Positions 6,283 through 24,884 of a stretch of 64,000 bases of DNA are shown here, in pieces (position 1 is the first letter of the stretch; every line of letters begins with the position of its first letter). The DNA is from Tichowtungia aerotolerans. GTDB taxonomy: Bacteria; Verrucomicrobiota; Kiritimatiellia; Kiritimatiellales; Tichowtungiaceae. Where the stretch lies: positions 3,538,900 to 3,602,899 of the forward strand of contig NZ_CP047593.1 of the NCBI RefSeq assembly GCF_009905215.1. Reading direction: 5' to 3'. The notes beneath the pieces were generated by a model that saw only the letters and a program-made list of their open reading frames with translations, had not been told where the DNA came from and did no database searches. The position numbers were made by a program, and so were the translations under genes.

Positions 6283-6920
6283 CACAGAATATCCAGCACT
6301 TCTTTGGCAACAGCCACGCCCAGTTTCTGATGCTCTTCAGCCTCCCAGTGAACCCCGTCAACCGGACTGGTTTGTACGACGTCCCCGGCATTGAACAGAC
6401 GAATGCTGTTTTCTTCGCAGAAGGTTTTCAGCACAGACGGAAGCTGCCGTGATTTTTCTTCCGCTCCAACAAAGATACCTCCGAGCGGGCTTTGGCTCAG
6501 GTCCACCAGCGGCGGCGGACAGATGACCAGCACTTCCGGAGCTTCGCCGAAGAATGGATTGCCGCTGTCGCGCGCGGCTTTGACGAGTCGGCCGATGCTC
6601 CAGCTGATATCCATCGGCGAAACGCTGAAGCGGTTTTTAAAGTCATTGGTTCCCAGCATGATAATAAGCAGATCGAGCGGCATGTGGGAATGAATGAGCG
6701 GCACAAGCTGCTTCAGGCCGTTTTTGCCGCCCTCGACCGGATCGTCCCAAACCGTATTGCGACCCGGCAATCCTTCTTCGATGACATAGTAACCGTCCCC
6801 GAGTTCCTGCTGCAAAATACCCGGCCAACGGGTCTGCCGGTCGTAACGCACACCACCGATCGGCGATGCCCCCCACGTATTCGAATCACCAAAACACAGT
6901 ACCGTTTTTTCCTTACTCAT
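6282..6920 (-). CDS. SGNH/GDSL-family hydrolase (arylesterase-like)
   Basis: 212 aa. The SGNH blocks are in order: block I VLCFGDSNTWG (nucleophile Ser), the block II Gly context near GLPGRNTVWDD, block III MLGTNDFK (Asn), and the C-terminal DGVHWEAEEH (Asp and His of the triad). There is no signal peptide, so it probably deacylates imported sugars or related esters in the cytoplasm. GAAGGAG precedes the ATG. It is coupled to the downstream lipoprotein gene through a TGATG overlap. Confidence 0.9.
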   Translation of the reverse strand: MSKEKTVLCFGDSNTWGASPIGGVRYDRQTRWPGILQQELGDGYYVIEEGLPGRNTVWDDPVEGGKNGLKQLVPLIHSHMPLDLLIIMLGTNDFKNRFSVSPMDISWSIGRLVKAARDSGNPFFGEAPEVLVICPPPLVDLSQSPLGGIFVGAEEKSRQLPSVLKTFCEENSIRLFNAGDVVQTSPVDGVHWEAEEHQKLGVAVAKEVLDIL

Positions 6921-7980: not shown

Positions 7981-8092
7981 AAACAATCCTTCTTTTTAAT
8001 AAACTGTATTTGCTGGCACCCTGCGACGGAACTGGCCAACCGGCAGCTTTAAAAATGGCCGCAGCAAAAAAACAAAAATCCCAGCTATTTTT

Positions 8093-11000
8093 TCATTCCA
8101 CTTCCACTTTGAAATAAACTACATCATTCGACTTCGAAACCGGATGCGAACTTTCCGAAAACCCTCCTGGAATACCGGAGGCCTCCACCATCCACGCACC
8201 TTCTGACAGATTGGTGGTGGTTAGAACACGGTAACGTTTTCCCTGAACCGATTTCCAGCGAAGTTCATCGGTCACTCCGGTAATTCTCAGATAAGAGTCC
8301 GCATCAAACGGATCGGTTCCGGCGACAAATTCCTGTGCGACGGAAAAACCGTCACCGTCGAAATCAGCCGTTCCGTCGGCTGCGCCCATGCTTCCGAACA
8401 GCTGAATTTCCCATGCGTCGGCCATCCCGTCCGCATCGCTATCAGACTCATCGTCCGCCACAATCGGAGGGATATAGGATGCTGGTGAAAAACTCGCGGC
8501 AACCGCTGCACAACTATAGGCCGGGGCATCCCAAGTGTAGGTTTTTGCTCCGGAAACAGTCTCAATCTGGAACCCGGCATTGCCCACCGAAGAGCCGCTG
8601 TCGCCGGAATAAAGCGTATTGGCAAAATCTGAACTTAAAGCAGCGCTTCCATTTTCCGTATAGACCCCCACAGCGAGGGAATTCTTCACGGCAGTTGTTA
8701 AGCCGATCGTGGTTAAAAACTCTGTTGAAGCCGTCTTTTCCGGGGCACCTGCAGCTGCATTCTGAAGACTCAGCACACCGATCCTTGAATCGGTTGGTGC
8801 GCTGAACTGCACAATGACGTTTGCATTGGACAAAGCCGGCTCATCCAGATACCAGATTGATGCATTTCGACCTTCAAACCGAGTCACGGCCTCGGTAAAG
8901 GCCAGTCCTCCGTAGGTTATATTGGTAATTACAGCGACTCCGCTTTCCCAGCTTGCGGCCACCACCAGCTTTGTATCCGGCCCGGTCGCCGGCGAAAAGC
9001 CTGACAGGGCATTGCTGGCCAGATCGGGATCAGACTTCTGCAGGTGCTGAGCAGTTGCCGACACGACAACCGGTTCGGGAATAAAGGAAGTTTCGGTAAT
9101 GGACGAAGAAATCTTCACCTCATCCATATCGCCAACAAAGTTGTTTCTGTTTTTGCGCGAACCGATATAAACCGTCCGCACATTCGGAACAAATACTCCA
9201 ATGCCGGGAGCAGAAACAGTTTCCTCTTCCGTTACCAGTTTAATGCGCCCGCCATCGTAGACCGCCTCAATGTACTGCCATTCGTTTCCCGTACTGATCG
9301 ATGCCGCCAGCTCAATCACATTGGTGGCGCTCATATCAGCCGCGTCGCCTGAACGATTGATTTTAAAGCTCACCTCTGCAGCATCCACACTGAGATAAAC
9401 CTGATCATAGACATGGAAAAGATATCCGCCGGTATCGCCTGATTTGAGACGGATCCATCCCTGATACCGAAAGGTTCCCTGACTGATCGGCCAGGCATCT
9501 GCCGTCATCATATATTGATCGCCGGCCTCAAAATTGCAGCGGACCGCCTTGCCGAATTTTCCGTCCGCGATCTGTTGAATGCTGTCGACGCTGTCTGAAT
9601 GAATGGCCGGAAACGCCGTCTCAAAATCCCAATGCGCAATTGTATTGGCATCATCAAAAAACGGCGCCACTCCGTGAACGGTGCGTTCCCCGCCATAGTT
9701 GATGACAAGCGGTCCTCCCTCAAAGTCGCCCTGCAGGTACGGCGCATCATAACACTTTATCGGCTCGAAATTGAGTGGCACTCCGTCGACACGCGGCGTT
9801 GCACTTTCGTCGGCGAACAGGGTCAGCGTCGTATCGTAACCCGAGCTGGTGTAGTCCAGCTGGGTGCCGTTCCAACGAATCGAATTGGCAAGGATCTCGG
9901 ATTGGAACGCAGCCATGCTTCCATAGACCTGCTTGCGCCCAACCTCCAGAATGATCGGGGAATATTCATCGTTGAGCACAGCCCACTCCCCAATATTGGT
10001 CGAAGTGACCGTACGCTGCAGGTTGGTCGAATCCGGCTGCCAGGTCCAGCCGCCATCCACAATGCGAACTGCGGCATAAGCCCGCGGCGCTTCCGAAAAA
10101 ATCCAGCCGCCGACTTCTTCACGGCTCAGCGAAAGATCAAACCAAACCATCTGGCCGGTCGCATTTTTGTGCTGCGTGAAGCGCTGCAGAATCATCGCGC
10201 CTTTATGCTGCACGCCCCACTCCGCATTGTACACACTGGTTAGATTCCCCGGATACGGCCGCTGCGTAAAAATACGCGCCGTTGAATGCCCGCCGAAAAC
10301 CACACCGTTCCAATGGTTCTGACTGCTGGCGGCCCACCAGTCATCTGCAGGCCGTGCCGCAACCTGACTGACCCCCATCACAAAATCGGGTGTGCTCCAC
10401 GTTGTCCGCAGCAGGCTGCCGCCAGCGGGATCCACCGCATTATAAGTTCCTCCCGCCAGCGCAGGCGGTTCCGGAAGCGGAGAAGAATCGCGCAGACCCA
10501 GACGGCGCGATGTGTATTCATAACAGCCGCGGCCCTCTCTATCCAGTACCAGCCCGACCACCGCGCGCGACGGCCGCCAGAAGGTCGTCATCGCAGACAT
10601 CGACCCCGGGTGCCTGCTCAACGGCTGCCCCTCCCCAAAATAATACCAGCAGTGCGACTCCGCTCCGCTTTGCAGAATGGAAGAACTGCCTGAGTAGGCG
10701 CGATGACGGCTCCCGCCGCGCACGCCGTCCAGATGCTCCAGCGCCCAGTCGGCCCAATACACATCCAGCAACGCAGCGGCCGCTTCCTGCAGTTCGGAGT
10801 CATCCGCAAAGTCCGCCAGATTCAGCCACGTGTTCAGCGTATATTTCGCATAGGTCGGCGACGCCACCTCAATCGCCAGTCCCTTCAGCGTTTTCTCCCG
10901 GACATACGCCTTGAAATAGTTATCAAACGCCGCCGCCATCTGCGCAGGAGTCGAACCGTCGGCATACGTGCGGTTCATGTAATCCGCATGCTGCTCAAAA

Positions 11001-11560
11001 ATCTGCGCCGCGCCCCAAAAACTCACCCAAGCCTGAGCATGATGATTTTCGCTCTCCCATGAAAAATGAACCTTTTCCGGATCGGCAAAGCCGATCCGAC
11101 AGATCGGAGCCGCCCAGTCCCACAGCATTTCGAGCACCGCGTCTTCAGCAGCCGCGCTCATGCGGATCGGGAAAAAATCGCTCTGCGCAGAATACAAAAA
11201 CCAGATCCGCTCCAGCAGATAGGCATGCCAGTGAAAACTATTCAGGTCAACATGCTCCTGATACAGCCCGTTGGTCTGGCAGGCAATCAGCCCAGCATCC
11301 GCAATCGCATTATTGGTGTTCAGCCAGTATGCCGCCAGTGCATAATCCTCATGCCGCCACATTCCCGTCGACGGATACGGACTGGCCTCCTGAAGGATCA
11401 GCGCCTGCTCCTGCCGAGCAAGAGTCTGTTCCAGCACATCATCAATCGTCGATGACTCCATGGCCCATGGCAAAAAGATCGGCCACAAAAATGCACAAAA
11501 AAACACAAGAAAACAGAGCTCCCGTTTCTGTGGCTTTTTATGTTTTCTGTGGCTACTCAT
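8093..11560 (-). CDS. secreted multidomain helical-toroid polysaccharide lyase-like enzyme
   Basis: 1155 aa with a signal peptide (basic N-terminus, hydrophobic stretch to about residue 34). Residues about 40-650 are homologous to the 658-aa and 872-aa proteins in this window: an all-helical region rich in Trp, then a beta-rich part, with SENHH, VASPTYAKYTLN, YWADWA and GVRGGSRHR conserved. Residues about 655-830 form a LamG/concanavalin-like domain (IAHWDFE ... YIGSRKNRNNFVGDMDEVKIS). Residues 833-1028 are a domain shared with the giant protein at 17890-21093. Residues 1037-1085 hold acidic DxDxDG calcium-binding repeats. The fold suggests a polysaccharide lyase; activity and family are inference. 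It follows the CBM96-like gene after 2 nt. Confidence 0.82.
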   Translation of the reverse strand: MSSHRKHKKPQKRELCFLVFFCAFLWPIFLPWAMESSTIDDVLEQTLARQEQALILQEASPYPSTGMWRHEDYALAAYWLNTNNAIADAGLIACQTNGLYQEHVDLNSFHWHAYLLERIWFLYSAQSDFFPIRMSAAAEDAVLEMLWDWAAPICRIGFADPEKVHFSWESENHHAQAWVSFWGAAQIFEQHADYMNRTYADGSTPAQMAAAFDNYFKAYVREKTLKGLAIEVASPTYAKYTLNTWLNLADFADDSELQEAAAALLDVYWADWALEHLDGVRGGSRHRAYSGSSSILQSGAESHCWYYFGEGQPLSRHPGSMSAMTTFWRPSRAVVGLVLDREGRGCYEYTSRRLGLRDSSPLPEPPALAGGTYNAVDPAGGSLLRTTWSTPDFVMGVSQVAARPADDWWAASSQNHWNGVVFGGHSTARIFTQRPYPGNLTSVYNAEWGVQHKGAMILQRFTQHKNATGQMVWFDLSLSREEVGGWIFSEAPRAYAAVRIVDGGWTWQPDSTNLQRTVTSTNIGEWAVLNDEYSPIILEVGRKQVYGSMAAFQSEILANSIRWNGTQLDYTSSGYDTTLTLFADESATPRVDGVPLNFEPIKCYDAPYLQGDFEGGPLVINYGGERTVHGVAPFFDDANTIAHWDFETAFPAIHSDSVDSIQQIADGKFGKAVRCNFEAGDQYMMTADAWPISQGTFRYQGWIRLKSGDTGGYLFHVYDQVYLSVDAAEVSFKINRSGDAADMSATNVIELAASISTGNEWQYIEAVYDGGRIKLVTEEETVSAPGIGVFVPNVRTVYIGSRKNRNNFVGDMDEVKISSSITETSFIPEPVVVSATAQHLQKSDPDLASNALSGFSPATGPDTKLVVAASWESGVAVITNITYGGLAFTEAVTRFEGRNASIWYLDEPALSNANVIVQFSAPTDSRIGVLSLQNAAAGAPEKTASTEFLTTIGLTTAVKNSLAVGVYTENGSAALSSDFANTLYSGDSGSSVGNAGFQIETVSGAKTYTWDAPAYSCAAVAASFSPASYIPPIVADDESDSDADGMADAWEIQLFGSMGAADGTADFDGDGFSVAQEFVAGTDPFDADSYLRITGVTDELRWKSVQGKRYRVLTTTNLSEGAWMVEASGIPGGFSESSHPVSKSNDVVYFKVEVE

Positions 11561-11562
11561 AA

Positions 11563-12279
11563 TTACTTCGCAAGGATTAGTTCAAGAGTCGCCGGCGGAT
11601 TGCCGTCCGGATCCTCTTTCGATGCATAGCGACAACTGTGCTGTGCGCCCTGCATCATAAAAGTAACCACGCCATTGCTGTCGTTGTTGACAAAAAGCGC
11701 TACATCAGCGCTTGTAAGTTCAACTAAACCCGGTTCGCCGCCATTGCAAATTTCACCCAGAAACACAATGGCATCCTCATTCCAGTCAACAGTCGTCAAA
11801 TCGCCATCAGGCTCCAGCATGCCGGGAGCACTCTCCCGGTCGAGCAGTTTTTCTATCCAGAACTCGTCGTGCTTATCCGCGTCCGCATCGTTTACGTCTT
11901 CACCGCCGGCCCTGTTCGTTCCCTTCACTCCATCCTTGAGACCAAACACACTCATCCGATCGCGGTCGTCGCCCATGAAATAAAGCTTGAACGTTGCAGA
12001 CTGTACTTTCCGTCCTTTCAAATCGGAGAGATCAAAACGAAAGTACCCGGTGTCCTGCCGGGTTGCGTTGGCACGCACCATTACAAATTTCGACATCTTC
12101 CCTGTGCCCGGCTTGGTCTTCAGAGATTTTTCAGAATTCTCGCTAACCCACCCGTCAGCCCCTTTGCCGGGAGTTCCATCACCACAATCGCCAGTGGTAA
12201 CCACCAGTGTTGCTGCACCTGCACCACACACCATTCCCACTCCTGCAATCAACAGTGCTTTCATATATTTCGGGCTCAC
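11563..12279 (-). CDS. secreted CBM96/DNRLRE-like carbohydrate-binding protein
   Basis: 238 aa. A short signal peptide (MKALLIAGVGMVCGAGA) is followed by one beta-sandwich domain. The stretch TGYFRFDLSDLKGRKVQSATFKLY is typical of the DNRLRE/CBM96 fold, whose members bind alginate or other glycans and often accompany lyases. The GTG start was chosen because AAGGAGG lies 8 nt upstream. It sits between two paralogous lyase-like genes with gaps of 21 and 2 nt, so a role in presenting the same polysaccharide is likely. Confidence 0.8.
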   Translation of the reverse strand: MSPKYMKALLIAGVGMVCGAGAATLVVTTGDCGDGTPGKGADGWVSENSEKSLKTKPGTGKMSKFVMVRANATRQDTGYFRFDLSDLKGRKVQSATFKLYFMGDDRDRMSVFGLKDGVKGTNRAGGEDVNDADADKHDEFWIEKLLDRESAPGMLEPDGDLTTVDWNEDAIVFLGEICNGGEPGLVELTSADVALFVNNDSNGVVTFMMQGAQHSCRYASKEDPDGNPPATLELILAK

Positions 12280-12300
12280 TTCTGCATCCTCCTTTATGGC

Positions 12301-14277
12301 TTATTCCTCGTTAAAATCGAGCGTCAGCAAAGACTCTCCTTTTTGAATCGTTACGATTCCGCTTCCGAACTTCCCGTTCAGGTACGGGCTCTTGTAAACA
12401 AAGCCGGGCGCAAAACAGACAAGGGCCCCATCCACCGTTGGTGAAGCACCAGCATCGACAGGCAGTGTCAGTACAGTGTTATAAAATGCACTGCGATAGC
12501 TAACGATCTGTCCCTCCCATGAAAATTCATTGGCCATAATTGCAGACTGAAAGCTTGAAAAATCGGCAAAGTATTTTTTGCGAACCGTTTCGATAATAAC
12601 CGGCGAAAATTCGTTATTCAGCACCAGCCATTTCCCCATGCCGTCTTTACCTTTTCCGTCGCGACGCTGTTTGACGGAATCAGCCTTCCACTCGCCACCG
12701 CCCTTGACGATGCGAACCGCGCAATAAGCCTGTGGTGCTTCCACAAACACCCAGCCATCTTTTTCGACGAGTTTAAGGGAATGATCGAACCAGATCATCT
12801 GTCCGGTGGCATCGCTGGTCTTGAGACGCTGAAGAATCATAACCCCCTTGTTCTGCACGCCCCACTCGGAGTTATAAACGCTCTTGCGCGCTTTGTCCGG
12901 CTTCACGCGCTGAGTGAAAACCCGCGCGGTGGGATGGCCAGCGAAGATGACACCATTCCAACGATTCTGAGCACTGGCCGCCCACCAGTCGCTCTGAGGC
13001 CGCGCTTCGATCACACTCATCCCGGCCACGAAGTCAGGCGTACACCATGACGTTCGCGTCAAACCTCCGCCCTGCGGCTCAAGGCGGTTGATACCTCTGG
13101 CTTCGTAAAGCGGATGGGATGGATCTTCGATATAGTTCTGCGGCTCACCCTGCTCTGCAAGTCCCGGGCGGCGGGAAACAACGGCATACTCGCCGCGATC
13201 CTCGGCGCCAAGCGCCAGCTCGGTCACCAGCGGATGCGGTCGCCAGAATGTGGTAGCGGCGCAAATGGTTCCGGGATGCTTGCTCGCTTCGACACCGACC
13301 CCAAAATGAAACCATGCGGCTTCGGCTCCGCCACTTTGCTCTACGGATGCCCGGCCGGTATAACACCGGTGACGACTGCCGCCGCGCACGCCGTCGATCT
13401 GTTCAATGGCCCAGTCGGCCCAATAAACATTGAGCAGCATATCGGCCCGTTTTTTCAGCACCGGATCGTCGGCAAAGTCGCACAGGTTATACAACGTATT
13501 GAGCGTATATTTGGAATAAGTCGGCGACGCGACCTCAACCAGCAGCCCCTTTGACGCCCGCTCACGAATCCACTCTTTGAAATATGTATCGAACGCCGCA
13601 GCCATTTGAGCGGGTTTTGTACCGTCAGCATACGGACGGTCTTTATAGTCCGGATGCGCCTCAAAAATCTGTGCGGCACCCCAGAAACTGACCCACGCCA
13701 TCAGGTGATGATTTTCGCTTCCCCACATCCACCAGACCTTCTCCGTATCAGCCAGTTCCCTGCGACAGACCGGCGCGGCCCACTCCCACAGCATGTCGAG
13801 AATTGCATTTTCCGCAGCAACACTCATGCGGCCGGGATGATGCTTGCTGCGACTCGAATAGAGCCAGTAAATCCGCTCCTGAAGATAAGCATGCCAATGC
13901 ATTGCCCCCGCTTCAAAATGAGCATTTGCCGCGGGGAAAAGATCGCGTTGAAGTGTCAGCAGCCCGGCATCTGCCTCTTCCGTTTTTTCATTCAATCCGT
14001 ACGCCGCCAACGCAAAGTTTTCGTAATACCACAACCCGGGGCCACCGGAACTGTTCTTTGGTGGATACGGATTGCTCAGCAAAGAACGCAGCACGCGCTC
14101 CTGCCGTGCAGCAGTTTGCTCCAGCACCTGCTGAATCGCTTCTGCCGGAGACGAAACAATTAACAGGCCGAACAGAGCCAACCCTGCGATTGCTGTTTTT
14201 TGGACAGGATTACAGGATTGCCGGGATTTTTTCGCCAAATCAGTCAGCCTGTTGTCGTACATATTACTTTTCATCAT
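12301..14277 (-). CDS. secreted helical-toroid polysaccharide lyase-like enzyme
   Basis: 658 aa with a signal peptide (hydrophobic core AIAGLALFGLLIVSSPAEA). It is one catalytic-type module collinear with residues 40-650 of the 1155-aa neighbour: WWMWGSENHHLMAWVSFWGA, EVASPTYSKYTLNTLYN, YWADWAIEQIDGVRGGSRHR and a C-terminal beta region. Conserved Asn-His and Tyr residues are good candidates for lyase-type catalysis, by analogy with (alpha/alpha)-toroid alginate and heparin lyases; I cannot assign a CAZy family. No strong Shine-Dalgarno is seen at the tandem ATGs. The gene lies between the Gfo/Idh/MocA and CBM96-like genes. Confidence 0.82.
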   Translation of the reverse strand: MMKSNMYDNRLTDLAKKSRQSCNPVQKTAIAGLALFGLLIVSSPAEAIQQVLEQTAARQERVLRSLLSNPYPPKNSSGGPGLWYYENFALAAYGLNEKTEEADAGLLTLQRDLFPAANAHFEAGAMHWHAYLQERIYWLYSSRSKHHPGRMSVAAENAILDMLWEWAAPVCRRELADTEKVWWMWGSENHHLMAWVSFWGAAQIFEAHPDYKDRPYADGTKPAQMAAAFDTYFKEWIRERASKGLLVEVASPTYSKYTLNTLYNLCDFADDPVLKKRADMLLNVYWADWAIEQIDGVRGGSRHRCYTGRASVEQSGGAEAAWFHFGVGVEASKHPGTICAATTFWRPHPLVTELALGAEDRGEYAVVSRRPGLAEQGEPQNYIEDPSHPLYEARGINRLEPQGGGLTRTSWCTPDFVAGMSVIEARPQSDWWAASAQNRWNGVIFAGHPTARVFTQRVKPDKARKSVYNSEWGVQNKGVMILQRLKTSDATGQMIWFDHSLKLVEKDGWVFVEAPQAYCAVRIVKGGGEWKADSVKQRRDGKGKDGMGKWLVLNNEFSPVIIETVRKKYFADFSSFQSAIMANEFSWEGQIVSYRSAFYNTVLTLPVDAGASPTVDGALVCFAPGFVYKSPYLNGKFGSGIVTIQKGESLLTLDFNEE

Positions 14278-14312
14278 GTGAATTGGGTGTGTTTTGTGGT
14301 GAACAATTCGGC

Positions 14313-15551
14313 TTAAACAGAAACCAATTCTTCTGACGGCACTTCCGCCTGAAAGCGAACGGGAAACTGCGTGTAGCCATCTGTATAAAACGGTTCACTG
14401 GCGCGCACCCACGGGACACCGATTTCGGAAAAAAGCGAGTTCGACTCAAATGCCTCCTTCAGGATTTCCCCCATGCCGGCAATCGCAACCTGCGTTTCGT
14501 CGCCACGGACAGTTACGCAATCCAGTGCTTCAGGCGGAATCGTGCTGATGGTTTCAGCCGAATCAAAGGCGGCGTTGACGGTCAGCGTAAACGGGCGAGT
14601 ATCCGCCAGCGAACAGATAAGATCCTCATTACTGCGCAATGTACGGCAAAGGTGTTCGATCATCTCGAGACGGTTTTCCTTGAAGCTTTCGCGGTATTCC
14701 ACCGTTCCATCATTAAACGTAATCTCGACTTCCTGCAGGTTGATGAAGCGAATCACTGCCTGTTCGGTTTCAATAACGGTATCTGGATTGGACTCGTCCC
14801 TGCACGCCAGCGTCAGCCACGAAAGAATCTCCAGCCCCTCATCAGTAATGATGCGAATGGCGCTGGTGTCTTCGCTCTCAATCCGGTTGGCACGGTAGAG
14901 CTCGGCCTGCACCGACGCCGGATTTGCGAGCTCATTCTGAGAGCTTCCGGCAAAGAAAAGTCCATTGCAGACCACATGGGCAAACGGGTTATTGATGTCT
15001 CCGTCCAGAATCCAGCGTCCGTTTTTCTTCAAGGAACCGGCCCACCCGTTGCGGCTGAAATAGGCGTTGGTCCGCACCCATGCACCCCGCGACTTGATGC
15101 GTTTGATCTTTCCGTATTTCCCTGCGACCAGTTCGGCCTTGAGCTGCTGGGCGCGAAAGGAAAAGAGCGAGTTAAAGCAGACCGCAACCGGAAGTCCGGT
15201 GACCAGTGCCGCCGTATTGAGGTCATCCAGTTCCTGAACGGTGGCAACCGGCGGCTTTTCCATCCAGACCGGGAATCCGGCGGCCAGACACTGCTTGGTA
15301 ATGCCGGCATGCAGATGAATGGGTGTCGGGTTTATCACCGCCTCGAAATCACCGTATTCGAGCAGTTCACCAACCGTCTGAAACACCTTGATTCCATGCG
15401 CTCGACAGTAGTTCGCACCATCACTGTCGAGATCGCGCGAAGTTACCGCCGTAATTTTTCCGTACAACGGAGTGGTTTGAATTCGAATGATCAGCTGGTA
15501 GGCATAGCCGCCGCAGCCGATCACTCCGATTTTGACAGGATCATTTATCAT
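14313..15551 (-). CDS. Gfo/Idh/MocA family oxidoreductase
   Basis: 412 aa. The N-terminal NAD(P)-binding segment is KIGVIGCGGYAYQLI. The family EKP motif appears in FPVWMEKPPVATVQELDD, and a GDINNPFAHVV segment in the C-terminal domain carries a His near the expected active site. It probably oxidises or reduces a sugar derivative in the cytoplasm. The start has GGAG 7 nt upstream and overlaps the last 11 nt of the transporter gene, so import and this oxidoreduction step are probably co-translated. It is distinct from the shorter Gfo/Idh/MocA protein at 6931-7980. Confidence 0.9.
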   Translation of the reverse strand: MINDPVKIGVIGCGGYAYQLIIRIQTTPLYGKITAVTSRDLDSDGANYCRAHGIKVFQTVGELLEYGDFEAVINPTPIHLHAGITKQCLAAGFPVWMEKPPVATVQELDDLNTAALVTGLPVAVCFNSLFSFRAQQLKAELVAGKYGKIKRIKSRGAWVRTNAYFSRNGWAGSLKKNGRWILDGDINNPFAHVVCNGLFFAGSSQNELANPASVQAELYRANRIESEDTSAIRIITDEGLEILSWLTLACRDESNPDTVIETEQAVIRFINLQEVEITFNDGTVEYRESFKENRLEMIEHLCRTLRSNEDLICSLADTRPFTLTVNAAFDSAETISTIPPEALDCVTVRGDETQVAIAGMGEILKEAFESNSLFSEIGVPWVRASEPFYTDGYTQFPVRFQAEVPSEELVSV

Positions 15552-17772
15552 TCTGTTTCTCCAAAAGGGTATAGACGGTCAGACCGTCGAGGTTTTTATT
15601 GGATTTTCGGTAAAGCAGACTGGCCAGATACCCGACGACGATGCAGGTGAACACGCCGACCGTGAGGTAGGCCAACGCATGCAGGTTCATATAAAACTTG
15701 GCGTAATAATTTGCTGCAATCGAAGCGATGGTTCCGACCCAGGCGCCGACGCTGTTGGCGCGACGGGTGAAAATCCCCAGCACAAAAATTCCGGTAATCG
15801 GCGCAAGGATCATGCCGGTAATCATCAGGGCAAGATCCCAGACCGACAGCAGGCTGGTGCGCGCCAGCAGCAGCGCCGCGCCCGTCCCGAAACCCCCGAG
15901 GCTGATCGTCAGCGTACGCCCGAGAATCAGGCATTTATGATCTGTCGCCTTGGGAAAGAAGCGGCGATAAACATCCTCCACCCCGAGGTTGGCCACACTG
16001 TTGATGGCGCCGGAAACGGTGGACATGGTGGCGGCCAGCAACGCTGCAACCACAAAGCCCGCCATGCCGGGCGGAAGGTTCTGCGCGGCAAAGAACGGGA
16101 AAATCCCGTCGGACTTGAGTGCCGGACTGAGCACTTCCGGACGCGTTTTGTAGAAGAGGAACAGCAGGGTTCCCAGCGCGAACAGGACAACATTCATTGG
16201 CACAGCCACGGCCAGCTGCGTAATGATGGTTTTGCGCGATTCCTTTTCGTCCGGTGTGCACTGAATGCGCTGAATAAAGGTTTGGTCGCCGATCAGCCCG
16301 AAGGTCAGGGAAATCACATTGGTGAACAGAATCAGGAAAACCGGCGCGGTCCAATCGAAACTGAAATCGAACATCTGCAGCTTGTTCATGCCGGCCAGCG
16401 CCTCGCGGGCGGCAGGCATTGAAAGGTCCAGAGTGAAGAAAGCCCAGGCACAACAGGTTAGCACCGCCAGCAGCATCACCGTTGCCTGCAAGACGTCAGT
16501 CCAAATGACGGCCTCAAGCCCGCCGAGTGTCACATAAATGGTTGCGACCACACCCATAATCAGAATGCTCTGCTCCATCGGCAGGCCGAAGATGGCGCTG
16601 AGTGCAATCGAGGGAAGCAGCAGGATCGCGGCCATGCGCCCCAGCATCTGGTTGAGCGAATAAATAACAAAACCGAGCATACGGATCGGCACGCCATAGC
16701 GTCGCTCGAGATAGTCATTGGCCGTTGCGATATTCAACCGGCGAATGAGCGGAACATAAACCAGCAGCATCAGCGGCAGTTGAACGATAACAATAAAAAT
16801 GGAAATCGAAAAATAGATCCAGTTGCCGGCGAAAGCCTTGCCCGGCATGGCCATCAGGCTGATGGCGCTTGCCCCGCTGGCAAACAGGCTGAGGCCCGCC
16901 GCCCACCACGGAACCCGCTGGCCGGCGCGAAAATAGTCACCGCTCGATTTTTCTTTTTTCGAAAAAACAACCCCGACCATCACCAGCGAGACAACCAGAA
17001 TCGCCACGACAAAATGGTCGACCCACCCATACTTGGTCGGATGCAGCTTCGCTTTCCCGGATACAACAGAGTCTTCACAAAAGAGAAAAAACTCCGTCCC
17101 GACTGACGCCACACCGATCGGCAGAACAGCCTGCGGAAGACGGTCCAGCTCAACCCATGAACCGGTCACACGATAATAAGCCAGAATGCGGTCATCGACT
17201 TTATTGGCATTAAAATAAAGCAGGTGTTCATTGCCGCAGGCGGCAGCAACAAAGCCGCTCAGGTCTTCGGGAGCCGGGCTGAGTATTATCCATTCATCGC
17301 GAACCGGGTTATAGGAAAACGCCCCTGCCCCGAACTCACCCGTTCCGCTCACATACAGCGCACCGTTCAGGCCGACAAGCACCGGTTTACCAACAGCAGG
17401 CTCCGGCAGCGAAGAACACTCAGACCACCCGGACTGCAGATCGGAAAGGTTCAGCTTAAACAGTTGCGATCCACCTGCAACAAACAGGTTCCCATCGGCA
17501 ACGGTCGCACCGGGATTGGTCAATACGGCCGGAAGATCCGGCAACGTGGTGGACTCCTCTCCCTCCACACGAAGAACGTTCTGACCGTCAATCCGATAGA
17601 CCCCGTCCTGAATTTTCACTCCCTGGAAAACCAGAGCACCGGAACCGCTCTGCACAACAGCCTCAGCAGGTGCCGAAGAAAAATCAAAAAAACCGTCGGA
17701 GGTTTCCGCAAAGGAAAAACCGGCACAGGCCAGTATCAATGAAAGCGTAATTTTTGCAAACTGGGTCATCAT
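15541..17772 (-). CDS. Kelch-domain/sodium:solute symporter fusion
   Basis: 743 aa. A signal peptide is followed by a beta-propeller-like Kelch region (about 25-240; repeats such as LPDLPAVLTNPGATVADGNL and NLSDLQSGWSECSSLPEP). A membrane domain follows from about 255 with many transmembrane helices of the SSS type (AGLSLFASGASAISLMAMPG, a typical SSS core segment; GGLEAVIWTDVLQ; LLAATMSTVSGAINSV). The Kelch part resembles periplasmic sugar mutarotases of the NanM type, so the fusion may supply the preferred anomer to a Na+-driven importer. The transported sugar is unknown. It heads the operon with the Gfo/Idh/MocA and lyase-like genes. Confidence 0.9.
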   Translation of the reverse strand: MMTQFAKITLSLILACAGFSFAETSDGFFDFSSAPAEAVVQSGSGALVFQGVKIQDGVYRIDGQNVLRVEGEESTTLPDLPAVLTNPGATVADGNLFVAGGSQLFKLNLSDLQSGWSECSSLPEPAVGKPVLVGLNGALYVSGTGEFGAGAFSYNPVRDEWIILSPAPEDLSGFVAAACGNEHLLYFNANKVDDRILAYYRVTGSWVELDRLPQAVLPIGVASVGTEFFLFCEDSVVSGKAKLHPTKYGWVDHFVVAILVVSLVMVGVVFSKKEKSSGDYFRAGQRVPWWAAGLSLFASGASAISLMAMPGKAFAGNWIYFSISIFIVIVQLPLMLLVYVPLIRRLNIATANDYLERRYGVPIRMLGFVIYSLNQMLGRMAAILLLPSIALSAIFGLPMEQSILIMGVVATIYVTLGGLEAVIWTDVLQATVMLLAVLTCCAWAFFTLDLSMPAAREALAGMNKLQMFDFSFDWTAPVFLILFTNVISLTFGLIGDQTFIQRIQCTPDEKESRKTIITQLAVAVPMNVVLFALGTLLFLFYKTRPEVLSPALKSDGIFPFFAAQNLPPGMAGFVVAALLAATMSTVSGAINSVANLGVEDVYRRFFPKATDHKCLILGRTLTISLGGFGTGAALLLARTSLLSVWDLALMITGMILAPITGIFVLGIFTRRANSVGAWVGTIASIAANYYAKFYMNLHALAYLTVGVFTCIVVGYLASLLYRKSNKNLDGLTVYTLLEKQNDK

Positions 17773-17833
17773 GTATTCTTTTCTGAGGCTTCAATGGTTA
17801 TGAGGCTTCCTGCCTCGTCTACAGTTATTTACA

Positions 17834-17882
17834 TTTTCCAACCTTTGGAAAAAACCGCATGGGCTTTTCCAAAAGTTGGAAT
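17834..17882. repeat. phased pair of TTCCAA-N3-TTGGAA palindromes
   Basis: TTTTCCAA-CCT-TTGGAAAA (17834-17852, perfect 8-bp arms) and TTCCAA-AAG-TTGGAA (17867-17881, with extra T/A flanks). They lie in the gap between the giant secreted protein gene and the symporter gene. Their centres are 31 bp apart, three helical turns. They are downstream of one gene and upstream of the other. Confidence 0.85.
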
Positions 17883-17889
17883 ACTCTCC

Positions 17890-20800
17890 TTACTCTGCCT
17901 TCTCAACCTGCAGGCGCAGGAACTTCGCATCCGAATCTGCCGAAACCGTATTGGTAACCGACTCGAATCCGGCAGCGGAAACACCGACACCTGTTTCTGA
18001 TACACCGTTGGTCGTCCAAGTGTTGGCGGACAGATCCGTATCGGTTTTAACCGTATAAGTCAGCCCGCGGTCAGTCGCATCCGTACGGCGCTCGTAAACA
18101 TAAACAAACAGTCCGCTGTCGGAATCCACCGCTGCCAGCGGCAGGACGGATCCGACATCTGCCGCTTCTGGATTCCCACCGAGAGCGTATTCGGTCAGGT
18201 TGTCCATGCCGTCGCCGTCGAAGTCGTCCAGCAGATTGGTCTGGCTGCCAACGCTGTACTCGCCAATCCAGCCTTCAAAGGTCGATGGAGCCTTCGGCAA
18301 TCGAACCGTCAGAGCAAAGTTGTCGAAGATCACATTCGGAACCACCTCGAGGTCCAGATTGCTGTCCGGGGCCAACAGGCCGGCATAACCGTCGCTTAAC
18401 GTAACAGACGGAGACCATGCCGTCTCAGGATTCAGCACCGTAGAGCTGCCAGCTTCTGTGATTTCGATCGAATATCCCGTTCCGGCACCGGACACCCTGA
18501 AGGTATAGGCCGTTCTGGCGTCAAAGTTTGCCGAAGCATTGTTGAGCGACGTGTCCGCATTGGCACCGTCAACCACCGCAATGTAATGATAGCTGGGATT
18601 TCCGGTCTTGATACGGGCCAGGCAGTAGTTGGATGGGTTCTGGTAATTGAATACCACTCCGCACCACTGTTCGTTGGTCGCGGCAGTGACGTCCGCACTC
18701 ATCGTAAAGCTTGCGCCATCAGCAGAAGAGATCTGCAAAGAGGTGTTGTATATGATCGGGGTATCATACGTATTGTTTGCGACACCCGCTTCCAGCTTAC
18801 TGCCGTTGATTCGCCACAGGTTAGTTCCCGGAACCACCCAGTCAGAACGAATGTCCGCGCCATTGGAGCTCCATGCGGTACCCGTGCGGTTAAAGTCGTC
18901 AGTGATCTGGCTGTCGACGGTGGCAAGTTCCGTTTCAGCCACTTTCAGCACCATCGAAGCGAACCTAAAGGTAGGGTTTGCGGTGGCATCGAAATGCATC
19001 CGCTGCATCAAAACGCCGGCAGCCTGAATATCAGTCAGGGTTGATCCGGCAACCCCGGCACCGAGATTACTCTCATCGCAAAACAGGTTTTCAGACGGAT
19101 CGTATGGATACCACGTTTCAGTATAGCCGTTCACATTAAAGCTTCCGGAGGCAACCGTCGCAGCCGAAACATACCAGTCTGAACCGTCCTGCACCAAAGC
19201 GCGTGCCATGCCTGCATCACCGTCAACAACAAACGCAACCGAGCTTGCCGAATCCTCGAATCCGAGAGTCTGGGTGGCGGAATTAAATCCGTTCAGAAAG
19301 TTGGCCTTTTTCACGTACGGAGCAAATGCCATCCCCGAATCGGCTGTCGCATTCGCATCAAACACCATCTGAAGAGCATCGGAGGCTCCCCGCCATTTGT
19401 AGTTGATTTGCTCAACAACCGGGGCGGTTACTGCATTGTCAAAATTAACATACTGCGCTCCACCGAAAAACGTTATCGTCTTATTGGTCAGACCGTTCAC
19501 ATTGTCGATCGTGACAAATGCATCGGTAATTTCACGCTGGGCCGCATAATCGTCAATGGCATTGACACCGAACTCATAGTCTCCCAAAGCCACAGTGAGC
19601 GACTCGCCATTACTTGTCTGATTGAGATCGTTATAGTCACCGCCGAAATCAATCGCCTTTGTTGAAGGAGCCTCGGATTGAACCATATTGGCCGACATCT
19701 CTGTAATCTGGAAGTTGGCCGCGTGCTGGCTGGTTCCGTTGAAGTGCAACCCCTGCATCAGAACTCCGAAAGCCTGAATATCCGTCAACTCAGAACCGGC
19801 CACGCCGGAACCGAGGCTGGACGTATTGAGGAACAGATTGATTGCAGGGTTATAAGGGTACCATGTTTCAGCATAGCCGTTGAAGCTGACAGCTCCCGCA
19901 TTCTCATTCACCAGTCCGGAACCAGACACATACCAATCCGAGCCACTCTGCACCAGTACACGCGCGGTATCACCTTCCGCAAACTGTTGAAGTGTGAATG
20001 AAACCGAATCCGCCGTATTTTCGAACGAAAGGACGTATGAATTGTCATTCAGGCCACTGAGAAAATCTACCTTCTTCACATATGGAGTGAACACCAGCCC
20101 CATATTGGATGTTCCCACATCGCTGGTAACCTGAAGGGAGTCTGCACTGGCACTATAGCGGTACAAGCCCAATGCCGAATCCGTCAGCGATCCAAAGTTT
20201 GCAATCTGAGCACCAGCATAAAAGGTTTTGGTATCGCCGGGTGCTCCTGTGCCTCCGGACGGAACAATGGTGTAAAATGCACTGCTGATATCGCGGTATC
20301 CCCGGCGATCCTCACCTGCCGTTCCAAAATCAAAGTCGCCTGTTTCATAATCCAGCGTCTCATCAAGGGAAACGTTACTATCCCGATAATCACCGCCAAA
20401 ATCGACCGCGAGGGTGCTGGATGGCGGAGCTTCCTGGAATCCGACAACTCCAATAATGCACTGATAGGTATCCGCAGTGAAACTGTAGCTCTTCAGGCCG
20501 GGAGACGCTTCGTTATGATAACCCGCAAGAACTTCGCAGGAGCCGCTGGCTCCCGTATAAAGAATATTTGAAAAAGATGTGGAGCTGACTGCGATCCCGC
20601 CATTGTTTTCGTTGTATACACCCAGAACGAACGTATTTGACACGGTCGTAGTCACATCAATCGACAAAGAATCAGCCTCTGAATCAGTGAGTAACGGACC
20701 GCCCGGTGCCGCGTTTTGCAGACTAAGAACGCCTATTCGAGTTGTATCAGCACCGTTCCATTGAGCGACGATGTCCTGTGTGCCGATATCCGGGGCATCT

Positions 20801-21093
20801 AAATACCAAATCGAAACCATGCGATGACTGTTTGCTACAGAATAGGCTTCCGAAAAAGTCTGGCTCCCATATGAAATGTTTGTAATGCCAATCGCGTTCC
20901 CTTCCCAGGTTGCAACCAAAACCAGCTTCCGGTTGTTTCCTGCAGCCGTTTCAAAGGCCGAAATCGTGTTCGAATCCAGATTCGACGATTGATAGTGATC
21001 CGCACTGCCGCTCACGACGATCTGTGCCGATGCACTGAATGTACACAACACAGCAATCAAGGCCGCGAACCATTTACTGAACATGCTCTTCAT
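17890..21093 (-). CDS. giant secreted multidomain protein with tandem duplicated domain
   Basis: 1067 aa from the ATG preceded by AAGGAG (the longer frame lacks support). A signal peptide ends at SASAQ. Residues about 25-224 are a domain homologous to residues 833-1028 of the 1155-aa enzyme (NITYGG/NISYGS, WYLDEP/WYLDAP, RIGVLSLQNAA). Residues 225-475 and 476-721 are two tandem copies of one domain (DFGGDY at the start, GSDWYVS, ETWYPY, GVAGSxLTDIQAxGVLMQ). Residues about 722-935 look concanavalin-like. The C-terminus carries DDFDGDGMDNLTEYALGGNP, a calcium-binding segment. No catalytic signature is recognisable; surface binding or display is most likely. Confidence 0.8.
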   Translation of the reverse strand: MKSMFSKWFAALIAVLCTFSASAQIVVSGSADHYQSSNLDSNTISAFETAAGNNRKLVLVATWEGNAIGITNISYGSQTFSEAYSVANSHRMVSIWYLDAPDIGTQDIVAQWNGADTTRIGVLSLQNAAPGGPLLTDSEADSLSIDVTTTVSNTFVLGVYNENNGGIAVSSTSFSNILYTGASGSCEVLAGYHNEASPGLKSYSFTADTYQCIIGVVGFQEAPPSSTLAVDFGGDYRDSNVSLDETLDYETGDFDFGTAGEDRRGYRDISSAFYTIVPSGGTGAPGDTKTFYAGAQIANFGSLTDSALGLYRYSASADSLQVTSDVGTSNMGLVFTPYVKKVDFLSGLNDNSYVLSFENTADSVSFTLQQFAEGDTARVLVQSGSDWYVSGSGLVNENAGAVSFNGYAETWYPYNPAINLFLNTSSLGSGVAGSELTDIQAFGVLMQGLHFNGTSQHAANFQITEMSANMVQSEAPSTKAIDFGGDYNDLNQTSNGESLTVALGDYEFGVNAIDDYAAQREITDAFVTIDNVNGLTNKTITFFGGAQYVNFDNAVTAPVVEQINYKWRGASDALQMVFDANATADSGMAFAPYVKKANFLNGFNSATQTLGFEDSASSVAFVVDGDAGMARALVQDGSDWYVSAATVASGSFNVNGYTETWYPYDPSENLFCDESNLGAGVAGSTLTDIQAAGVLMQRMHFDATANPTFRFASMVLKVAETELATVDSQITDDFNRTGTAWSSNGADIRSDWVVPGTNLWRINGSKLEAGVANNTYDTPIIYNTSLQISSADGASFTMSADVTAATNEQWCGVVFNYQNPSNYCLARIKTGNPSYHYIAVVDGANADTSLNNASANFDARTAYTFRVSGAGTGYSIEITEAGSSTVLNPETAWSPSVTLSDGYAGLLAPDSNLDLEVVPNVIFDNFALTVRLPKAPSTFEGWIGEYSVGSQTNLLDDFDGDGMDNLTEYALGGNPEAADVGSVLPLAAVDSDSGLFVYVYERRTDATDRGLTYTVKTDTDLSANTWTTNGVSETGVGVSAAGFESVTNTVSADSDAKFLRLQVEKAE

Positions 21094-21369
21094 AACCATC
21101 TCCTTTCTATCTCTCATTCCAATACATCGGAGCTCCTGACCATTAATGGCGCAACAGACCGACGCAAGAGCCACATGGTACTACATGAAACAAACATGTC
21201 AACATACATTCCTGCTGATCATCATCTGAGGCATCACAAAGGCCAAAAAATCGATAAGAAACATGATCAAACAGAACCCGCCCCAACAAAACAAACAATC
21301 CAACTTGACAAGTTTCACGCAACAAAACAACATATGTAACATACATATTTAACGAAAACCGGGAGCCCC
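21094..21369. promoter_or_regulatory. divergent intergenic region
   Basis: About 276 bp between the divergently transcribed giant secreted protein and the third lyase-like gene; visibly AT-rich. It must hold promoters for both. TTGACA occurs at 21305-21310 in the plus orientation, but I see no well-spaced -10 hexamer for it. A putative LacI operator lies near its right end. Confidence 0.5.
21332..21348. promoter_or_regulatory. putative LacI-family operator
   Basis: ATATGTAACATACATAT is nearly palindromic about its central C (arms ATATGTA and TACATAT). Its 11-bp core TGTAACATACA recurs exactly at 24901-24911 before the lacI-type gene. It lies 21 bp before the ATG of the 872-aa gene, a position suited to repression. 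Confidence 0.6.
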
Positions 21370-23988
21370 ATGAAACACATTTTGCTGATTGCAACACTCT
21401 GCGCCGCGGCGCACTGCCTCGGCGATAAACCGCTCGATTTCTGGGACGAGGAAATTCGCCTGTTCAACACCGCCAGACCTGCGCGCCCACTCGACGTCAT
21501 GCTGAGCGCACACCGGGCAGCGGAGTTTAAACCGCGCGGTTTTTCACTCGATCATGCCGATCATAAAGTCGGCGACCTGAGCATCGCCTACTCCCCCGCC
21601 AAAGCCGGTATGCCGAAACGCTTCGGCTTTTTCGCCGGCCTATGGAACGAAAAATGGACGCTTTCTCCTGAAGCCAGCTTAACAATGTGGATCAAAGCGG
21701 AGAACACTGATTTTTCCGCCCCCTGGAGAATTACACTGGTTGACTTCCAAAACCTGGAAGCCGTCGGAGAACTGAACGGCATTACCGGCGACTGGCAGGA
21801 ACTGACACTGCCGCTGAGTGAACTGAAGGCCGCAAACGGCTTTGACTGGACCCAGGTGAAGCTGTGTGAGTTCGATGCCAAACTCGACAAGGAAGCCCTC
21901 GTTCACTTTGACGGCATCCGTTTCAAAAACGACAAAGACGTGACCGGCGTAACCGATAAAACTGTCGTCCAGCGCATGGCCGAGGCCGAGATAAGCCGCA
22001 CATTGCGCATGGAAACCGCACTCAAGACGGCCGCCGACAATGAAAACGGCGGTCTCTACGCGCCGGTCGCCGCGTTTGCAAAAATGATGCTCAACGAAGA
22101 TCTCGAAACCGCCAACCAAATATTGACCGATGAGCTGAAACAAAGCTCGGAAGCCAACGTATGGAGCCTGCTGCACACCCCGCTCTATTGCCGCTTCTAC
22201 TACATGTTTTCCAACCGCTGCGGAAAATTCCCGGGCCGCATGACGCCCGAAACAGAAAAGCTGCTGCTCAAAACGCTGTGGAGCCGCACCTCTTCCAAGA
22301 ACGATATTCACTGGGCACGCCAAAGCACCTGGTATCTGGACGGCAGCGAAAACCACGACCTCAACGCCAAGGCCTGCAACCTGGTTACTTCGCACATTTT
22401 TATGAATGAGCCGGACTACAAAGACCGCATCTATCCCGACTACGGATTCGGAGGCAGCTATCACTACGGACACGCAGGTTACTACGGACCCGGCGTTGAT
22501 GAAAAAACTCGCCACCACGGCGGGCGTGCCAATTTGTCCGACGAAAAAAAACACAACGCCGCAGACCATTACGAAGCGTGGCTGGCCTATTTTAAAACAT
22601 ACTTCCGCGAACGCGCCGAACGCGGTTTCTTTCTGGAATACGGATCCTACGGATACAGCAAGCACACGCTCAATATGTTCGACCTCGCCCAGCACTATTG
22701 CGGCGACGATGGGTTACGTTCCATGCTCGACAACTTCCTTACACTCTATTGGGCGGAGTGGGCTCAGGTTTCGATTTCCGGCGTGCGCGGCGGCCCCAAA
22801 ACCCGTCATCACAGCAAGGTTGGCGGCCCCGACGACAAAGCCACTGCGGATCTAATCGGCTTTCACCTCGGCGGTCCGGGCAACGCCGGCCCGTGGTGGT
22901 ACTGGAACATCGTCAACGACTACCGGCTGCCATCCATCGTCTGGAAAATGGCACTCGACCGCGAAGGCATGGGATGCTTCACCTATAAAGCGCGCGGCAT
23001 CGGCGAAGAAGTGAATGAAATGCCCCGCCCGCTCGGCACGGAACGCAGCCTGGTGGTCGACACCGAAGCGCGCATGCTGAAAAACACCTATGTCACTCCC
23101 GACTACACCCTCGGCACACAAATGGACCACCCGCTCACCGCGCATTCTCATCTGAGCATCTGCGGCCGCTGGCACGGCATGACCTTTGCGCAGAATCCGC
23201 ACTGCCGCATCGTTCCAGTCGGCATCACTGACGGCCCCAACGAAAAGGGCAAGAAAAGCCCCTACGACCTCGAAGTGATGTATCACACCGCACAGCACGA
23301 GCGCACACTGATCGTTCAGCAGTCGCGCCGCTGGTATGCCATCCATCCGGACTGGTATCCAAACAGCATTGAGTACAATCAGCCGGTCGGCATCTGGTTC
23401 GGCAACGAATGGGACAAACGCATCGAAAAAGACGGATGGATTTTTGTGCAGAGTGGCGACGCCTACGCCGCCGTGCGTCCAGTCTTATGGGACGAAGCCT
23501 ACGAAAAGGAAAACAAGAAAAAGACGACCGGCAATCAGGTCTTCTTTAACGCGCCCGACGACGCCCCGACCGTCAAGCTGCGCACCGACTGCCATAAGTG
23601 GAATGAAAACAAAACAATGCTGATCTACGAGGACAACTACACCGCCACCATCATCGAAGCGGGACGCCGGATTGATTATCCGACCCTGGAAGAATTCATG
23701 GCCGATGTACTCGACAATCCGATCGCGCTCTATAAAACGGTTGTGCCGGGTGACAACATTCTCGTCTACACCCCTTGCGGAAAAGACGCGAAAGAGATGG
23801 TCTTCAACTGCGGCACCGTACAGATTCCAACCATTGGAAACGAGCCGGTCAACTACAGCTACCCAATGACCTTCGACAGCCCGACCCTGAAGTCGAAGTA
23901 CAAAAGCGGAAAAATCCGCATCGAATTCGGCGGAGAAACCCTCGACCTCGATTTTTCAAGGAAACCTTGGTGGAACTTTTGGAAGTAA
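21370..23988 (+). CDS. secreted helical-toroid polysaccharide lyase-like enzyme with N-terminal beta-sandwich
   Basis: 872 aa with a signal peptide (HILLIATLCAAAHCLG). Residues about 25-185 look like a CBM-like jelly-roll (WKLSPEAS-type pattern, WRITLVDFQN, HFDGIRFKND). The rest aligns with the two paralogues on the other strand: DGSENHDLNAKA, YGYSKHTLNMFD, YWAEWAQVSISGVRGGPKTRHH. It differs by a Tyr/Gly/His-rich insertion after the SENH motif (YHYGHAGYYGPG), suggesting a different subsite or substrate. GGGAG precedes the ATG. It is followed at 74 nt by a DUF1961-like gene and then by a LacI regulator; a matching operator lies upstream. Confidence 0.82.
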   Translation: MKHILLIATLCAAAHCLGDKPLDFWDEEIRLFNTARPARPLDVMLSAHRAAEFKPRGFSLDHADHKVGDLSIAYSPAKAGMPKRFGFFAGLWNEKWTLSPEASLTMWIKAENTDFSAPWRITLVDFQNLEAVGELNGITGDWQELTLPLSELKAANGFDWTQVKLCEFDAKLDKEALVHFDGIRFKNDKDVTGVTDKTVVQRMAEAEISRTLRMETALKTAADNENGGLYAPVAAFAKMMLNEDLETANQILTDELKQSSEANVWSLLHTPLYCRFYYMFSNRCGKFPGRMTPETEKLLLKTLWSRTSSKNDIHWARQSTWYLDGSENHDLNAKACNLVTSHIFMNEPDYKDRIYPDYGFGGSYHYGHAGYYGPGVDEKTRHHGGRANLSDEKKHNAADHYEAWLAYFKTYFRERAERGFFLEYGSYGYSKHTLNMFDLAQHYCGDDGLRSMLDNFLTLYWAEWAQVSISGVRGGPKTRHHSKVGGPDDKATADLIGFHLGGPGNAGPWWYWNIVNDYRLPSIVWKMALDREGMGCFTYKARGIGEEVNEMPRPLGTERSLVVDTEARMLKNTYVTPDYTLGTQMDHPLTAHSHLSICGRWHGMTFAQNPHCRIVPVGITDGPNEKGKKSPYDLEVMYHTAQHERTLIVQQSRRWYAIHPDWYPNSIEYNQPVGIWFGNEWDKRIEKDGWIFVQSGDAYAAVRPVLWDEAYEKENKKKTTGNQVFFNAPDDAPTVKLRTDCHKWNENKTMLIYEDNYTATIIEAGRRIDYPTLEEFMADVLDNPIALYKTVVPGDNILVYTPCGKDAKEMVFNCGTVQIPTIGNEPVNYSYPMTFDSPTLKSKYKSGKIRIEFGGETLDLDFSRKPWWNFWK
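23825..23839. repeat. dispersed palindrome, intragenic copy
   Basis: TTCCAA-CCA-TTGGAA with perfect 6-bp arms inside the 872-aa gene; in frame Ile-Pro-Thr-Ile-Gly-Asn. Confidence 0.75.
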
Positions 23989-24062: not shown

Positions 24063-24884
24063 ATGACAACACCTGAAGTTATCACTCTGCTGGCAACCAG
24101 TCTCTTTCTGGTCGGATGCGCCACCCAAACTCAAAGCCCGGTCTCTCCGGATCAAACGGCATTCGAACAAGCCAACCGAGAATGCTGGAAAGAAATCTTT
24201 TCAGACTCATGCACCGGCGACTGGACCGAACAGTGGTTTCTCGACGGCGAAATCGGCAAAGTCACAACCAGCCCGGACGGCATGGAACTGACCGCCGGTC
24301 CGGAGTTTAAAAATGATGCCCACCACATGGTGCTGTGGACCAAAGAGGTTTTTGAGGGCGACCTGAAGATTGAATACGACTACACGCGACTCGACGATGA
24401 AACCCGCTGCGTCAATATTCTCTACATCCAGGCCACCGGCAGCGGCGAAGAACCGTATGTGGAAGACATCATAAAATGGAACGATCTGCGCCGCGTACCC
24501 GCGATGCGGATGTATTTCGACCACATGAATACCTACCACATCAGCTATGCCGCCTTCCCCAACGACGAAGACTCCACCAGCTACATCCGCGCACGGCGCT
24601 ACATACCCAACGCCACCGGACTCGAAGGATCCGATCTCGAACCGGACTATTACCCCGAAGGGCTTTTCAAAAAAGGCGTTCCGCACAAAATCACCGTCAT
24701 CAAAAAAGAGCGCGCACTGTTCATGAAAATTGAAAATGCGGAGCAGACAACCTATTGCCACATGACCAACCCAAAGCTGCCTGCCATCACGGAAGGACGC
24801 ATTGGACTGCGTCATATGTTCACTCGCTCCTCACGCTATAAAAACATCCGCATCAGCATCCCAAAACAAAAGCCTGCTCATTGA
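24063..24884 (+). CDS. DUF1961-like lipoprotein (concanavalin-like fold)
   Basis: 273 aa with a lipoprotein signal (SLFLVGC). The body shows the pattern of DUF1961-type proteins: WFLDGEIGKV, GMELTAGPEF, HHMVLWTKEVFEGDLKIEYDYTR, NILYIQATG, HMNTYHISYAAF, and a C-terminal GRIGLRHMFTRSSRYKNIRI typical of concanavalin-like glycan-active domains. Such proteins occur in polysaccharide loci; a binding or hydrolase/lyase role is possible but not shown by sequence. It is co-directional with and 74 nt after the 872-aa enzyme gene, so the two are probably co-transcribed. Confidence 0.7.
   Translation: MTTPEVITLLATSLFLVGCATQTQSPVSPDQTAFEQANRECWKEIFSDSCTGDWTEQWFLDGEIGKVTTSPDGMELTAGPEFKNDAHHMVLWTKEVFEGDLKIEYDYTRLDDETRCVNILYIQATGSGEEPYVEDIIKWNDLRRVPAMRMYFDHMNTYHISYAAFPNDEDSTSYIRARRYIPNATGLEGSDLEPDYYPEGLFKKGVPHKITVIKKERALFMKIENAEQTTYCHMTNPKLPAITEGRIGLRHMFTRSSRYKNIRISIPKQKPAH

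Follow-up and report, generated by a model that had tools for sequence, protein, structure and literature searches.

Candidate polysaccharide lyases of the toroid clan encoded by three paralogous genes in one locus of Tichowtungia aerotolerans

Kiritimatiellota and their relatives encode very many sulfatases, and a large share of the machinery with which they cut polysaccharides is unassigned. A locus of Tichowtungia aerotolerans, contained in a window of 64,000 nucleotides (the whole stretch of DNA analysed here; contig NZ_CP047593.1, positions 3,538,900 to 3,602,899), raises the question of whether three of its proteins belong to that machinery, and by which chemistry they would act. A preliminary description had read these proteins as three paralogues of polysaccharide lyase type, an interpretation that is supported by the analysis reported here.

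Three paralogous genes and their neighbourhood

The products of the three genes, hereafter B1155, A658 and C872 after their lengths, are true paralogues, with core identities of 25-53% that are far beyond chance. Pairwise BLAST comparisons gave 53% identity over 604 aa for A658 and B1155, 25% over 703 aa (E 5e-45) for A658 and C872, and about 25% (E 2e-39) for B1155 and C872; thus, three paralogues in one locus, as originally proposed, are borne out by the positions of the open reading frames and by BLAST E-values of 1e-39 to 1e-45. All three proteins are predicted to be secreted, from signal peptides recognized by eye. The locus is composed as follows, in window coordinates.

6282..6920, minus strand: GDSL esterase
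6931..7986, minus strand: second GFO/IDH/MocA oxidoreductase
8093..11560, minus strand: B1155 (1155 aa), toroid lyase-like core (about residues 36-630) and a C-terminal segment comprising a LamG-like part, a domain common to the 1094-aa protein, and a TSP3 repeat with tail
11563..12279, minus strand: 238-aa protein between B1155 and A658, sub-threshold CBM96/DNRLRE
12301..14277, minus strand: A658 (658 aa), toroid and beta domain; the simplest member, modelled
14313..15551, minus strand: GFO/IDH/MocA oxidoreductase
15541..17772, minus strand: kelch (NanM-like, weak) and sodium:solute symporter
17890..21174, minus strand: 1094-aa predicted-secreted protein with domains common to B1155 and two second-locus proteins
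21370..23988, plus strand: C872 (872 aa), CBM-like N-terminal sandwich (about residues 25-190), toroid with insertion, beta domain
24063..24884, plus strand: DUF1961 lipoprotein-like partner, directly after C872
24945..25964, plus strand: LacI-type regulator

The minus strand thus reads 1094-aa protein, symporter, oxidoreductase, A658, CBM96-like protein, B1155, oxidoreductase and GDSL esterase, followed by an FAD protein, a 2-hydroxyacid dehydrogenase, a TIM-barrel protein and an esterase, whereas C872, the DUF1961 protein and the LacI regulator are on the plus strand. That the paralogues differ in their appended domains holds true: C872 has its N-terminal CBM-like sandwich, and B1155 a C-terminal segment with a weak LamG-like match, a TSP3 repeat and a part shared with the 1094-aa neighbour (42% identity over 205 aa). 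A full-length relative of B1155 is present in locus L022. As for the two partners named in the preliminary description, the DUF1961-like protein has a match above the cut-off (E 4e-11), whereas the similarity of the 238-aa protein to CBM96 falls below threshold (19.2 bits against 26; DNRLRE, 22 against 34). The 1094-aa protein itself has repeated VDFGGDY-type domains and a tail shared with B1155 and second-locus proteins, and has no Pfam match.

The genome (3.88 Mb, one contig) contains two further copies of the gene at 1.81 Mb, encoding 650 and 883 aa (genome 1812834-1817563; L008:12736-17588), the 650-aa copy being very divergent. A plasmid search by tblastn with A658 found nothing. This second pair adjoins a copy of the kelch/SSF symporter that is 76% identical to the first, compared with 52% for the 872/883-aa pair, and its locus also repeats domains of the 1094-aa protein (L008:4882-8310). 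Since the symporter is far better conserved than the enzymes, both loci may import a similar product.

Predicted fold and candidate active site

Searched against Pfam and NCBIfam, the catalytic regions of B1155, A658 and C872 gave no match. Relatives were collected by a scan of one genome per species, which yielded 39 loci, and the 43 relatives used for comparison gave nothing beyond stray single matches in Pfam; neither PF07940 (Hepar_II_III_C; PL12/PL15/PL21), at E 1, nor the PL5 family (PF05426, Alginate_lyase) was matched by any of them. A profile of the 43 against PDB sequences, a set spanning many toroid families (PL8, 12, 15, 17, 21, 33, 35 and 39 included), returned nothing below E 0.6, and solved PL35 members were not found even at E up to 10. 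Nor did we find a paper describing the family in the open-access literature. The earlier statement that the family could not be placed is therefore upheld as far as Pfam, NCBIfam and PDB sequences are concerned. Matches of C872 to nanobodies in phmmer (E 3e-4) were discarded as local chance matches.

Structural models were more informative. The AlphaFold (AF2) model of the A658 core (pLDDT 92.4, pTM 0.93) has helices up to about model residue 327, followed by an antiparallel beta domain, namely, the architecture of the lyase clan, in agreement with the toroid proposed at the outset. Foldseek retrieved toroid lyases or human dermatan sulfate epimerase in 24 of 24 matches at E <=0.001, and the best 50 rows of VIA-align were likewise all toroid lyases or this epimerase, led by one with Z 11.8, rmsd 6.6 and 415 aligned residues. 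Because Z values of 9-12 are moderate for helical folds, A658 is placed at the level of clan, not family; judged from the model, the family belongs to the clan of (alpha/alpha)-toroid plus antiparallel beta-sheet lyases. PL38 is not among the structural matches, which proves nothing.

The best VIA rows (Z 11.8 and 11.1) are PL35 GAGases (8KHV, 8KHW) and the chondroitinase 9o3q, which combine toroid and antiparallel beta domain as here, with an Asn neutralizer and a Tyr 54 residues later; however, they are only 10-12% identical to A658, with no sequence-level match. The C872 model (pLDDT 83) has an N-terminal sandwich resembling CBM30/CBM11. When its whole chain is compared by Foldseek, chondroitin ABC lyases of PL8 (2q1f, 1hn0) rank first; these share its sandwich, toroid and beta domain and have an Arg downstream of Tyr, but with 8-9% identity and an rmsd of 26 over the whole chain. 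Moreover, PL8 has a His nine residues before the Tyr, and the present family a Glu six before it. The insertion after SENH, already noticed in the preliminary description, is confirmed; in proteins of the 872-aa type it spans about 34 residues, and in the C872 model it lacks regular structure and falls partly below pLDDT 50. The sites referred to below are the following.

13708..13719, minus strand: SENH of A658 (S187-H190), ENH invariant among 43 relatives
13516..13518, minus strand: A658 Tyr254, putative acid/base, invariant
13366..13368, minus strand: A658 Arg304 (RGGxxxR), invariant
22345..22356, plus strand: SENH of C872 (326-329)
22450..22551, plus strand: class C insertion of C872 after SENH (about residues 361-394), coil, partly low confidence
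22654..22656, plus strand: C872 Tyr429, equivalent of A658 Tyr254
23143..23151, plus strand: HxH of C872 (His592, His594), beta domain

Six residues (E188, N189, H190, E248, Y254 and R304, in A658 numbering) are invariant in 43 of 43 relatives, and six more (S187, D218, R240, R439, W440 and Q483) nearly so. The motifs quoted earlier all exist, but invariance is confined to parts of them, namely, ENH within SENH, the Arg after RGG, and the first Tyr of TY(A/S)K(Y/H)TLN, along with a Glu that precedes this Tyr by six residues; YWA(D/E)WA is nearly invariant at both Trp. A distant group with TENH at this position keeps the N, E, Y and R.

In the clan, an Asn, often with a His, neutralizes the substrate carboxylate, and a Tyr 53-60 residues later serves as base or acid, usually with a beta-domain His as well (PMC12088678). 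The spacing from N189 to Y254, both invariant, is 65 residues in A658. The reading of Asn-His plus Tyr as a toroid lyase pattern agrees with a profile alignment to heparinase II/III-type lyases (PL12/PL15/PL21), in which SENH lies over ANH, and Glu/Ser-Pro-x-Tyr over an identical heparinase pattern. This hhalign match is weak (score 50.7, E 6e-5, probability 64 with the combined profile; probability 17 with the family alone), 13 reversed or column-shuffled controls scoring 16.0 or less; it is limited to the toroid, leaves the Arg outside the register, and has no parallel in PF07940 itself, which does not match the family. The alginate lyases of PL17 and PL39 pair an Asn-His neutralizer with Tyr, as here, and the PL40 ulvan lyase Uly1040 has Asn-Trp and Tyr (PMC12088678, PMC12915356), although the PL17, PL39 and PL40 members of the PDB set have no detectable sequence similarity to the family.

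The beta domain divides the family. A tree of 56 members, in which four rows with very long branches are of uncertain placement, separates class C (the 872/883-aa type), its sister class E (about 700 aa), class A/B (the 658/1155-aa type) and a Bacteroidota clade. An HxH motif in the beta domain characterizes all 19 class C/E members and occurs in no other class, about 95% of the remaining members having Trp at its first position. PL39 and PL40 have an HxH pair in their beta domain (PMC12915356), and alignment and spacing suggest that the class C/E motif is its counterpart: the distance from Tyr to His is 163 residues in C872 and 155-180 in PL17, PL35, PL39 and PL40. Class A/B, in contrast, lacks the pair of PL39 and PL40 (PMC12088678, PMC12915356) as well as a counterpart of the catalytic beta-domain His401 of PL35 (PMC12088678). 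Since C/E proteins have HxH where the 658/1155 type has Trp, A658 and B1155 probably differ from C872 in their catalytic base. A further difference from PL39 and PL40, in which HxH comprises a base His and a metal His, is that these have an Asp about 50 residues after the Tyr that activates the base His, whereas here, by spacing only, that place is taken by an invariant Arg (Arg304 in A658, Arg479 in C872; 50 residues after the Tyr in 43 of 43).

Proposed mechanism and alternative explanations

We propose that a uronic-acid chain would bind where toroid and beta domain form a cleft, its carboxylate in subsite +1 being neutralized by Asn189 of SENH with the help of His190. The proton at C5 would then be abstracted and the departing 4-O protonated by Tyr254, leaving a chain end that is 4,5-unsaturated. 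For the 872-aa type, one of the two His of HxH (His592 or His594) would likely serve as the base or its activator, with Tyr429 as the acid. In the 658/1155 type, Trp occupies the HxH position, and therefore the base would be either Tyr254 alone, by syn elimination on GlcA or ManA, or His190. Given this difference in base, the copies are probably specific for different linkages or epimers within a single polymer. The esterases may deal with substituents, and the co-encoded kelch/SSF symporter with uptake.

We consider lyase chemistry likely, and likely, too, that this is a new polysaccharide lyase family of the toroid clan, absent from Pfam and NCBIfam and using the full mechanism just described. 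A more ambitious picture has in our judgement roughly even chances, namely, an undescribed, phylum-spanning lyase family working as in-locus sets, one branch of which eliminates with Tyr or the SENH His alone, without the beta-domain base His of the clan, while the other keeps HxH beside an Arg that replaces the activating Asp, with a wider TENH group in Verrucomicrobiota. If true, annotators could use this family, which has no Pfam or NCBIfam model, to recognize new polysaccharide loci, and the split between HxH and Trp within a single locus would be a natural test of which residue is the base in the clan and of its relation to the uronate epimer that is cut.

The function would be the same, only not new, if the proteins fell into a polysaccharide lyase family already established in CAZy but with neither a Pfam or NCBIfam model nor a close solved relative. 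The comparison covered Pfam, NCBIfam and PDB sequences, where PL37, for example, has no identifiable representative; yet the failure of the 43 relatives to match Pfam, the empty profile search across the many toroid families in PDB sequences and the lack of a describing paper in the open-access literature make this rather unlikely. Fold similarity raises a different alternative, namely, that these are uronyl C5-epimerases of the dermatan sulfate epimerase type, with an unchanged fold and residue set. Human dermatan sulfate epimerase 1 (6hzn), a uronyl C5-epimerase that takes and returns the proton without cleavage, heads the Foldseek list for the A658 model (E 5.9e-9) and ranks third in VIA (Z 10.7), at about 10% identity. 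This enzyme is an epimerase, not a lyase, whereas the context of A658 is catabolic: multiple copies, in loci with esterases, sulfatases, transporters and GH88, point to breakdown rather than polymer modification. Besides, the dermatan sulfate epimerase keeps a beta-domain His, which class A/B lacks, and we regard an epimerase as quite improbable.

Glycoside hydrolases, or non-catalytic glycan binders, built on the toroid could be imagined from the presence of GH146 further down the Foldseek list and from the invariant acids E188 and E248. But GH146 appears at E 4e-3, beneath 27 rows that all belong to the lyase/epimerase clan, the Asn-His/Tyr register agrees with lyases, and full conservation of the polar residues argues against a dead protein; this explanation appears very improbable. 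The uronate lyase reading has against it the weak profile match to heparinases, the moderate VIA Z values and a genome in which GH88/105, for the processing of unsaturated ends, was not found, as in most of the relatives' loci. Even so, it is the best reading, favoured by the register with known lyases, the conserved residue set, the fold and the loci taken together.

Relatives, genomic context and substrate

The 39 loci come from records titled Verrucomicrobia, Planctomycetes, Lentisphaerae, Bacteroidetes, Armatimonadetes, Gemmatimonadetes, Sumerlaeota, Latescibacterota, Bacillota and Proteobacteria, and members occur in bacteria from lakes, groundwater, the rumen and the sea. Several copies together are common, with two to four in 13 of the 39 loci. 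Within Verrucomicrobiota, the phylum of the window, the profile matched 45 of 289 sampled genomes, distant relatives included; many of these matches are distant relatives with TENHW replacing SENH, and without Pfam families. The SENH and TENH groups can be aligned over their full length (hhalign probability 100, E 1.6e-56, 544 columns), and the latter is probably a sister family. Its genes (L090-L102; for instance, L094:3255-5195 and L100:2224-4437) are often in tandem, and some have TDN replacing ENH.

GH88 enzymes act on unsaturated uronates; they are encoded in three loci (L023, L027 and L028), while most of the relatives' loci are without GH88/105. Most promising with regard to the substrate is the locus of a Bacteroidota MAG (L023:5366-20407), with four family members, SusCD, two GH88, DUF1961, BNR_4 and a GDSL esterase. 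Other genes of the relatives' loci encode SASA-like esterases (ten loci), sulfatases (seven), DUF1961 (five), GH78 (three) and PL26 (two), while PL5 and GH106 each occur in a single locus. DUF1961 also occurs in Bacillus subtilis, used as a control, where we take YesU to be the DUF1961 protein. The gene of this lectin-like protein adjoins that of a rhamnogalacturonan acetylesterase (PMC6120924). Based on this context of glycoside hydrolases, lyases and DUF1961, the evidence leans tentatively towards a polymer with rhamnose and uronate as the favoured substrate, the least certain part of the proposal.

Other substrates were considered and set aside. Alginate is disfavoured by the lack of PF05426 in the genome and by the single PL5 among the 39 loci, and fucoidan or carrageenan, considered on account of the many sulfatases, by the lack of any sulfatase beside the three genes. 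The T. aerotolerans genome has 138 sulfatase-family matches in 3.9 Mb, the nearest to the locus at about position 63,400 of the window. It also has two KDPG-aldolase-family matches, and its only two PF07940 matches (1846320-1846784 and 1864496-1865104) are close to sulfatases, at a distance of 30-50 kb from the second gene pair. Finally, in an Opitutales MAG (L038:10797-13418), a class C gene is split into two open reading frames (397 and 461 aa), possibly by a frameshift or an assembly error.
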